Positions 27,258 through 30,200 of a stretch of 64,000 bases of DNA are shown in pieces (position 1 is the first letter of the stretch; the number at the start of each line of letters is the position of its first letter). Source of the DNA: Haloflavibacter putidus (lineage in GTDB: Bacteria > Bacteroidota > Bacteroidia > Flavobacteriales > Flavobacteriaceae); the NCBI RefSeq assembly GCF_006546625.1, contig NZ_VIAR01000008.1, forward strand, positions 62,001 through 126,000. The letters run 5' to 3'. Made by a program: the position numbers and the translations under genes. The notes below the pieces were generated by a model, which saw only the letters and a list, made by a program, of their open reading frames with translations, was not told where the DNA came from and made no database searches.

Positions 27258-30200
27258 ATGAGTTATAATTTTAACGATATCGAGGCCAAGTGGCAAGCCT
27301 ATTGGCACAAAAACCAAACTTTTAAAGCCGCTAATCATAGCGATAAAGAAAAATTCTATGTGTTAGATATGTTTCCGTATCCGTCTGGCGCGGGTTTGCA
27401 CGTTGGGCATCCGTTAGGTTATATAGCAAGCGATATTTATGCGCGTTTTAAACGCCATCAAAATTATAATGTTTTACACCCGCAAGGCTACGATTCTTTT
27501 GGTTTGCCAGCAGAACAATATGCTATCCAAACCGGGCAACATCCTGCTATTACTACAAAAACTAATATAAAACGCTACCGAGAACAATTAGATAAAATTG
27601 GTTTTTCTTTTGATTGGAGTCGGGAGGTACGCACTAGCGATCCGGATTATTATAAATGGACACAATGGATTTTTATTCAGCTTTTTGAAAGCTGGTACGA
27701 TTATAAAGAAGACAAAGCCCGCGATATTGCAGAATTAAAAGAGATTTTTACTTCCAAAGGTAACACGAGCGTAAATGCTGCTTGCGATACAGATGTATCT
27801 GAATTTTCTGCGGAAGAATGGAAAAGTTTTTCTACGCAAAAACAACAAGAAATACTACTAAAATACCGCCTAACCTACCTTGCCGAAACAGAAGTAAACT
27901 GGTGTCCGCAATTAGGAACCGTTTTGGCCAACGACGAGATTGTAAACGGCGTTTCAGAACGTGGCGGCTATCCGGTAGTGCGTAAAAAAATGAAACAATG
28001 GAGTATGCGCATCTCAGCCTATGCAGAGCGTTTATTGCAAGGTTTAGAAAGCCTAGATTGGACAGATAGCTTAAAAGAAAGTCAGCGTAATTGGATTGGC
28101 AAATCTGTTGGGGCGATAGTTGAATTTCAGGTGCTTTCTTCAGATAGAAGCAAAACTGCCTCCCATCCCCAACCCTTCCCCGAGGGAAGGGAGAGTGCAC
28201 AGGAAAAAGAATACTATAGACGGCTAACCGGTAATCCTAAGATAGCTGGAGAATTGCTAAAAAGAGCAAAAGAAATGCGCAAAAATCCTACGGATGCAGA
28301 AAAAAAAATGTGGGATAGTTTAAGAGCGAAAAAATTAGGAGTAAAATTTAGACAGCAACACCCAATAGATAATTATATTGTAGATTTTGTATGTCTTGAT
28401 AAAAAATTAATTATTGAAGTTGATGGAGAAATCCATCAGTTCCAAAAAGAAAAGGATGAAGAACGTCAGCTTATTTTAGAGCAAAAATTAGGTTATAAAA
28501 CTTTACGTTTTACTAACGATGAGGTGAAAAACTTTCATTCTAAAGTAATAGATGAAATTAAAGCGAAATTAGAAGTCCTCCCCTCAGGGGAGGATTTAGG
28601 AGGGGATGCCTCATCAACAGCCTCGTCTAAAAAAAACAACGACAATAATTTAAAAGAGAACGCTTCCTTCACAAACTCAATCCAAAACTCAAACCACAAA
28701 TTTGAAGTTTTCACCACCCGCCCAGATACTATTTACGGCGTAACTTTTATGACCTTGGCACCGGAACATGAATTGGTAGATCATATTACCACAAAAGAAC
28801 AAAAAGAAGCGGTACAAGCTTATAAAGAAAAAACCGCCAAACGCAGCGAGCGCGAGCGTATGGCAGATGTAAAAAGCATCACCGGCGTCTTTACCGGCGC
28901 GTATGCAGAGCACCCGTTTACCAAAGAAGCTATTCCTATTTGGATTGGAGATTATGTCTTGGCAAGCTATGGCACCGGAGCGGTAATGGCCGTTCCTTGT
29001 GGCGACCAGCGCGATCACGATTTTGCTAAGCATTTTGAAGGAAAACCCGGCATGCCGCCAATCAAAAATATTTTTAAAGATGTAGATGTTTCGGAAGCTG
29101 CATACAGCGGAAAAGAAAACACGGTAATCACTAATTCTGATTTTTTAAGTGATTTACCTTATAAAAAAGCCTTAAAAAGAGCCATTTTTGAACTGGAAAA
29201 AACCGGGCAGGGCAAAGGAAAAACCAATTACCGTTTGCGCGATGCCGTTTTTAGTAGACAGAGATATTGGGGCGAGCCGTTTCCGGTATATTATGTAGAT
29301 GGTTTACCGCAAATGATTGCAGAAGAACATTTACCTTTAGAATTGCCTGAGGTAGAAAAATATTTACCTACAGAAGAAGGCGAGCCGCCTTTGGGAAGAG
29401 CAGATGTTTGGGCGTGGGATGCTAAAAACAAGAAAGTGGTAAAAAACCATTTAATAGACCACACTACTGTATTTCCGTTAGAACTAAATACCATGCCGGG
29501 TTGGGCAGGTAGCTCTTGGTATTTTTTCCGTTATATGGAAAAAGAAAAGCGGCAAGATGTTTTCGCTTCCGCGGAAGCGTTAAATTATTGGAAAAACGTA
29601 GACTTGTACATTGGTGGTAGCGAGCATGCCACCGGGCATTTACTTTATGCCCGTTTTTGGACAAAATTTTTAAACGATAGAAATTTGGTGCCAGTACAAG
29701 AACCCTTTAAAAAATTGATAAACCAAGGCATGATTTTAGGGGAAAGTGCTTTTGTGTATAGATTAGAAGGAGAAAATAAATTTGTGAGCGCAAATAAAAT
29801 CAAGGACTTGAAAGTGCAACCCATTCACGCCGATGTTGTTTTAGTAAATGCCTCTAATGAATTAGATATAGAAGCCTTTAAAAACTGGCGCCCCGAGTTT
29901 AAAGAAGCAGAATTTATTACTGAAGAAGACGGCAAATACATTGTTGGTCGCGAGGTAGAAAAAATGTCTAAATCTAAATACAACGTAGTAAATCCCGATG
30001 ATATTTGCGAAGAATACGGCGCAGACACTTTACGGATGTACGAAATGTTTTTAGGTCCCTTAGAACAATCTAAACCTTGGAGTACCGCCGGACTTAGCGG
30101 CGTACATAATTTTTTAAAGAAACTTTGGAAACTTTACCATAATGGCGATGAGTTTCAGGTTAGCGAAGAGGCGGCAAGCAAAGAATCGTTAAAAACCCTG

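Follow-up and report, generated by a model that had tools for sequence, protein, structure and literature searches.

How can an essential enzyme carry a complete nuclease domain within its own reading frame? This question is raised by leuS, the gene for leucyl-tRNA synthetase (LeuRS), in a 64,000-nucleotide stretch of DNA from Haloflavibacter putidus (the window; G000 is the window genome, and G-numbers and L-numbers denote genomes and loci, respectively). To our knowledge, RNA or protein splicing is generally thought necessary for mobile nucleases to reside in essential genes. Our data indicate that the block inside this LeuRS is probably one copy of a selfish nuclease cassette with hairpin ends, which would spread mostly to the same site and sometimes to new sites, tolerated as translated rather than spliced sequence.

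A first-pass annotation, made from the DNA letters, had described leuS as one open frame with all synthetase and editing motifs and a complete DUF559-type domain in a turn of the editing region, and profile searches bear out this description. The uninterrupted frame of 1127 aa is identified as leucine--tRNA ligase (NCBIfam TIGR00396, 897.5 bits) and contains the HIGH, KMSK and TTRPDT motifs along with further editing motifs. The DUF559 domain (Pfam PF04480) is complete, scores 114.5 bits (E 2.8e-33) against a curated cut-off of 20.6, and lies in the turn between NWIGKS and the VFTTRPDT editing motif. Splicing had been judged absent; indeed, a Pfam scan of the whole LeuRS at E <=0.1 returned the synthetase domains and DUF559 only, with no Hint or splicing domain. 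No transposase domain was found in the frame either, and its enzyme is DUF559, not a RAYT (Y1 tyrosine) transposase. Asp376, Glu387 and Asp389, which had been placed in catalytic-type positions, correspond to D60, E71 and D73 of the domain alignment and are invariant in 68 of 68 rows. E348 and H393 complete the catalytic-type set and are kept in 199/199 and 197/199 in-gene rows, respectively. The proposed PD-(D/E)XK fold was also recovered, since fold comparison matched the insert to Vsr/PD-(D/E)XK proteins. Furthermore, the homing endonuclease I-Bth0305I is related to the insert both by sequence profile and by the fold of its catalytic domain. A viral fold library returned phage DUF559 and homing-endonuclease rows (best E 3.9e-7). 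A defence role was considered and set aside, PADLOC having given only DpdF (E 5.4e-4). The features are collected in Table 1; the extension of aa 316-333 is regarded as part of the element because it is common to inserts in other host genes.

Table 1. Positions in the window of leuS and of the parts of its inserted cassette
Feature	Position	Strand	Basis
leuS, leucine--tRNA ligase, host of the insert, 1127 aa	27258..30641	+	open frame, Pfam, NCBIfam
Left cassette end CATCCCCAACCCTTCCCCGAGGGAAGGGAG; hairpin 28173-28191 (perfect 8-bp stem); read as HPQPFPEGRE	28164..28193	+	hairpin and repeat comparison
Conserved N-terminal extension of the cassette protein, aa 316-333	28203..28256	+	common to inserts in other hosts
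DUF559 (Vsr-like) nuclease-type domain, aa 334-438; E348, D376, E387, D389, H393	28257..28571	+	profile, alignment, fold
Right cassette end GTCCTCCCCTCAGGGGAGGATTTAGGAGGGGATG; hairpin 28576-28594 (perfect 8-bp stem); matches the left end imperfectly, in inverted orientation	28575..28608	+	
Ser/Asn-rich linker from cassette to VFTTRPDT; shorter in G014, absent in other occupied congeners	28609..28706	+	

The annotation had taken the block to be an insertion and not a conserved domain, and a congener alignment agrees. We compared 16 genomes of the genus including that of the window; leuS of the other 15 encodes 938 to 1150 aa. The DUF559 domain occupies the LeuRS turn in five of the 16 (G000, G006, G008, G012, G014) and is absent from 11. 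Eight genomes have a plain turn of 11 residues, where the window LeuRS has an insert of approximately 190, and the remaining three have other small repeats (a short palindromic repeat in G003 and G007, an EFRVQ-type repeat in G010). The turn is a hot spot for coding repeats, with unrelated dispersed repeats in frame in G003 and G007 (L148, L152), L409, L417, L418, L425, L433, L441 and L454, among them the types MLKQVQHD..HSELDSESHH, ASEAKQS and TERSRS. A second highly variable stretch, between GMILG and KMSK, has tens of extra residues without DUF559 in leuS of G001, G005, G012 and G013 (L146, L150, L156, L157).

Wider site surveys, in which loci were ranked by the likeness of the upstream segment, found mostly short sites in LeuRS and RecG. 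Among the best 50 of 147 matches for the LeuRS site, 41 were short, seven were longer (some of these being unrelated dispersed repeats) and two held the nuclease, one being the window; G148 and G139, nuclease rows of the same rank range, were left out of this count, and 4/52 is the fairer figure. At the RecG site, 30 loci from 99 of 100 genomes comprised 24 short, two nuclease-bearing and four longer ones. One of the longer loci, L496, looks like two cassette ends fused in frame without the nuclease and, judged by its sequence, is a probable deletion scar. Read in this way, L496 suggests that a host may be able to shed the insert, so that the first-pass view of a domain which the host cannot lose by simple frameshift without killing LeuRS is not borne out in that form. 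None of 30 loci surveyed at MetH site B held the nuclease (10 short, 14 longer, six unread).

We found that the LeuRS insert belongs to a large family of in-frame insertions. The PF04480 profile matched in 188 of 397 genomes of the family and in 182 of 395 of the class, with rows taken from the best-scoring matches listed. Frames of at least about 300 aa among the matches listed gave 57 regions (58 rows) together with three genus loci, and then 76 regions; with a local profile we recovered 61 domains in 60 frames of the first set and 76 in 76 of the second. A scan of named genomes with two peptide patterns gave 81 domains in the best 80 of 575 loci, 71 of them in frames >=300 aa. After removal of repeats there were at least 199 distinct in-frame domains (61 + 76 + 62, in frames >=300 aa) and 36 stand-alone ones. 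DUF559 had been described as usually a stand-alone small protein, a statement at odds with the many copies among the matches listed that sit in housekeeping-gene frames. The 199 comprise 75 domains at the window site of LeuRS, 13 in LeuRS before TMPGWAG, 25 in MetH (three sites), 12 in RecG, nine in IleRS, eight in Acs, three in RecJ, one in ValRS and 31 in other hosts, with nine HemD fusions, eight other N-terminal and five C-terminal fusions; frames were read stop to stop, so that N-terminal fusions may be separate genes, and 177 domains remain without the HemD, N- and C-terminal rows. All five catalytic-type residues are kept in 196 of the 199, a set in which decayed copies are under-sampled.

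NCBIfam naming of 19 representative host types besides LeuRS placed RecG, MetH, IleRS, HisD, Acs, RecJ, MutS, HisF, guanylate kinase, ValRS, MetRS, IspF, PriA, TsaD and IcmF above the cut-off. HemD, an RluA-family synthase, a RecB-like helicase and a SiaA-like phosphatase were best matches below it, and DUF559 was the sole NCBIfam match in L188. The cassette thus occurs in about 20 unrelated host gene families, at several sites per gene. Outside Bacteroidota it was found in a Paceibacterota LeuRS (L298) and an alphaproteobacterial PriA (L288), both from metagenome bins that may be mis-binned. The HemD N-terminus is read in frame with DUF559 in nine genomes (L061, L072, L075, L081, L088, L089, L090, L092, L098), which form one deep group in a tree of 74 domains. 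Sixty-one viral contigs (L344-L404) encode DUF559 relatives of 26-51% identity.

The ends of the cassette are conserved at the DNA level. In the window, the insert is flanked by an imperfect inverted pair of GC-rich ends, and the cassette measures 445 bp. We sought strong GC-rich hairpins within 150 nt of the 197 in-frame domains (of 199) that had enough flank, and found them on the left of 122, the right of 122, either side of 153 and both sides of 91, compared to only 11 of 388 control windows from the same open reading frames. An end-to-end likeness score of >=40 was reached within one cassette in 51/197 cases vs 13/590 between different cassettes, and the two ends of the IleRS insert L218 are identical at 32/32 bases. 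For the linkers of LeuRS inserts (27 of 35 left, 23 of 40 right), covariation was compared with 500 shuffles. Double-changed cells numbered 40 on the left vs 18.5 when shuffled and 24 on the right vs 8.2, values that 0/500 shuffles reached on each side; shifting the partner by 1-3 columns reduced the numbers to 2-17 (left) and 0-9 (right), below the true pairing. These alignments indicate that the hairpin stems at the cassette ends covary in relatives. A search of Rfam gave nothing near a gathering score. In L334, L274 and L279, in-frame hairpin-type repeats are stacked next to the DUF559 domain.

Ends of this kind also occur without the nuclease. We found the left-end type five times in G000 and 11 times in G014 (leuS being one in each), once each in G008 and G012, and in none of the 12 other genomes of the genus. 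Copies in G000, G014 and G008 retain the outer arm CATCCCC or CATCTCC, while the match in G012 lies in frame inside a 382-aa open frame. Two of the left-type ends in G000 open tandem 181-bp units that have a right end and no nuclease. These units, at L517 (G000:C4, approximately 755-935 and 952-1132), carry both cassette-type ends and resemble miniature inverted-repeat transposable elements. At L525 (G014:C35) a tandem array has three left-type ends spaced regularly at 143 bp. The CTCCCC..GGGGAG type occurs at ten places in G012, including both ends of its IleRS cassette. In G001, whose LeuRS site is empty, the hairpin CTCCCCCCAAGGGGGAG occurs three times within 7 kb (G001:C73:133688-140690; L528, L529).

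These observations bring in a first alternative, in which the nuclease acts solely in end-directed transposition as a Vsr-fold parallel to REP/RAYT. It would mobilise hairpin ends alone or with the cassette, harmless in-frame insertions would survive, and clustering would reflect few permissive sites. The dispersed and paired nuclease-free ends fit this alternative, as do the number of host families, the unrelated small repeats accepted by the LeuRS turn, and the MetH of G229, in which two 418-bp copies stand at two sites with their likeness running from hairpin to hairpin. On the other hand, inserts group by site across genera and not within a genome, and the right-end hairpin (CTCCCCN{1,6}GGGGAG) is single-copy in G000, at the leuS right end. 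The left-end copies in G000 and G014, together with the paired nuclease-free ends, gave this alternative more weight, and we regard it as a serious though rather doubtful possibility; for the same reason, action on the ends is included in the splice-free reading given below.

Trees of the domains show this grouping. In the 74-domain tree, inserts of RecG (97/88), IleRS (97/91), MetH (100/100), HisD (100/98) and HemD (100/99) form one group each, while those of LeuRS fall in at least two lineages. In a quick tree of 235 rows, host labels need 52 changes (minimum 14, shuffled mean 148), and inserts group with same-site inserts of other genera, not with others of their own genome. The nearest rows to the ValRS insert L342 are from IleRS, RecG and LeuRS, all at 1.27-1.29; a target in the shared TTRPxT motif would have placed it close to the LeuRS inserts. 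In-gene copies formed a clade separate from the stand-alone domains in the 74-row tree (100/92; 13 stand-alone rows, HemD outside). They did not strictly do so in the 235-row tree, which needed eight changes between the two states after exclusion of HemD, N- and C-terminal fusions.

Could the domain instead be old, inherited vertically with many losses and now serving a host function, for example in LeuRS? Its presence at the same site in many genera is in keeping with this, and so is purifying selection that matches that on the host enzyme. Against it, two insert lineages share one LeuRS site within the genus (the lineage of G006, G012 and G014 being assigned by identity), in hosts that are 80-82% identical with inserts only 45-52% identical. 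In the LeuRS host tree, hosts of unlike insert lineages are joined (G383 with G217; G409 with G392 and G236), and occupied G008 joins empty G002 as occupied G006 joins empty G001. In view of these interleaved species and mixed lineages, we set aside a single ancient domain passed on by vertical descent alone. Two inserts are less diverged than their hosts, and the domain is found in about 20 unrelated enzymes. We therefore consider an old domain with a host function unlikely.

We next consider selection on the insert. Over 37 same-site pairs, the ratio of nonsynonymous to synonymous divergence (pN/pS) of the domain was 0.19, equal to that of the host, and this pattern indicates purifying selection on the nuclease-type domain as strong as that on the host enzyme. 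At synonymous sites, the insert was less diverged than the host in two of the 37 pairs after Bonferroni correction (G006/G012 and RecJ L222/L235). These values bear on another alternative, that dispersed repeats simply gather where turns permit them, carrying along as cargo a nuclease whose activity is not under selection. Nuclease-free repeats at the same LeuRS turn (G003, G007, L409, L418) suggest such passive gathering, as do the nuclease-free hairpins at MetH site B (one in L064, two in L059). The pN/pS of the domain and the retention of its catalytic-type residues are hard to reconcile with mere cargo, and we judge this alternative improbable.

Several observations weigh against a selfish cassette as we read it. 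Strong hairpins stand on both sides of only 91 of the 197 domains; in the covariation test, left pairs with a double change (4 vs 3.7 in shuffles) and further pair types (6 vs 10.8 left, 10 vs 10.1 right) show no excess. One of the 37 pairs, Acs L260/L244, has an insert more diverged than its host after Bonferroni correction (p 1.8e-4), and the window pair G000/G014 is also reversed (insert pS 0.65 vs host 0.38-0.45; 0.55 vs 0.44, p 0.12, in the 37-pair comparison). G000 and G014 are sisters, so that they count as a single evolutionary instance of the association between cassette type and dispersed ends, and G001 has four hairpins of another type (CTCCCC..GGGGAG) with no DUF559 cassette. Same-site clustering may in part be the product of vertical inheritance followed by losses. 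Because the empty and occupied alleles come from different species, exact junctions and target duplications are unreadable. Finally, the domain is without a separate DNA-binding module that would account for specificity.

We propose that the cassette consists of GC-rich inverted hairpins at the ends and a Vsr-type nuclease domain of approximately 120 aa in frame with the host. It would survive in essential genes by its position in turns and linkers, by keeping the frame and by hairpins translated as Pro/Gly/Ser/Glu-rich linkers; because it sits there in frame with its hairpins read through, no intron or intein would be needed. We infer that the nuclease acts at its own ends and/or at empty alleles. 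By recombination, other genomes may then receive a copy of the cassette at the same site, as in homing, and more rarely the ends may carry the cassette or non-autonomous hairpin pieces to new places. Taken to its full extent, this would be a splice-free selfish system: a Vsr-type endonuclease as a permanent internal domain of essential enzymes, cutting empty host alleles and/or its own hairpin ends, copied same-site into other genomes, also spreading non-autonomous hairpin pieces, and enjoying the essential-gene shelter that inteins have without their splicing. We put this fuller reading forward tentatively. The first interpretation of the block keeps its core, an in-frame insertion of Vsr-type fold with retained catalytic-type residues, while its stand-alone and no-loss components are not borne out in the form first given.

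In many Bacteroidota, then, such a nuclease cassette is borne by tRNA synthetases, DNA repair helicases, mismatch repair and one-carbon enzymes, apparently without splicing. Provided that the cassette moves by its nuclease, it would represent a further solution beside introns and inteins. Furthermore, its sites mark natural insertion-tolerant positions in well-studied enzymes, and the cassette would assign a role to a portion of the large DUF559 family and open the origin of domain insertions from selfish DNA to testing.

How, then, does the cassette relate to known systems? Among the titles and abstract openings listed by searches of a collection that includes few subscription papers and no bioRxiv preprints, we found no description of DUF559 inside housekeeping enzymes, which is no proof of absence. 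Rickettsia palindromic elements (RPEs) are not known to encode an enzyme. They are palindromic DNA of about 150 bp (PMC10969869) that lies in frame in genes and is translated (PMC3733652, PMC10969869). The cassette is likewise a palindromic element in frame within a coding gene, and differs from RPEs in having a nuclease domain, under purifying selection, between two hairpins. Inteins with homing endonucleases carry a nuclease in frame in conserved genes and are patchily distributed. Inteins occur in housekeeping genes (PMC9410109); the cassette shares the in-frame nuclease, the conserved hosts and the patchiness, whereas no splicing domain was found in it. EDxHD/Vsr has been named a homing-endonuclease domain (PMC12350094), and I-Bth0305I, of this group, resembles the insert in profile and in the fold of its catalytic domain; in the literature consulted, such nucleases are not described as residing permanently within a host enzyme. 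The stand-alone DUF559/Vsr-like nucleases Caulobacter VsrA (PMC12907096) and NGO0050 have the same domain as the cassette; they are free proteins, and the consulted portions of their descriptions report neither hairpin ends nor an in-frame host. In REP/RAYT, palindromes flank the gene of a DNA-processing enzyme and further copies are dispersed in the genome (PMC3733652), much as palindromes surround the nuclease here and its ends are dispersed; in contrast, the enzyme fold is another, the nuclease copies examined here are in-frame parts of enzymes, and the ends are present in few copies (five and 11). The cassette shares some features with each known system, and departs in a defining feature from inteins, RPEs and REP/RAYT.
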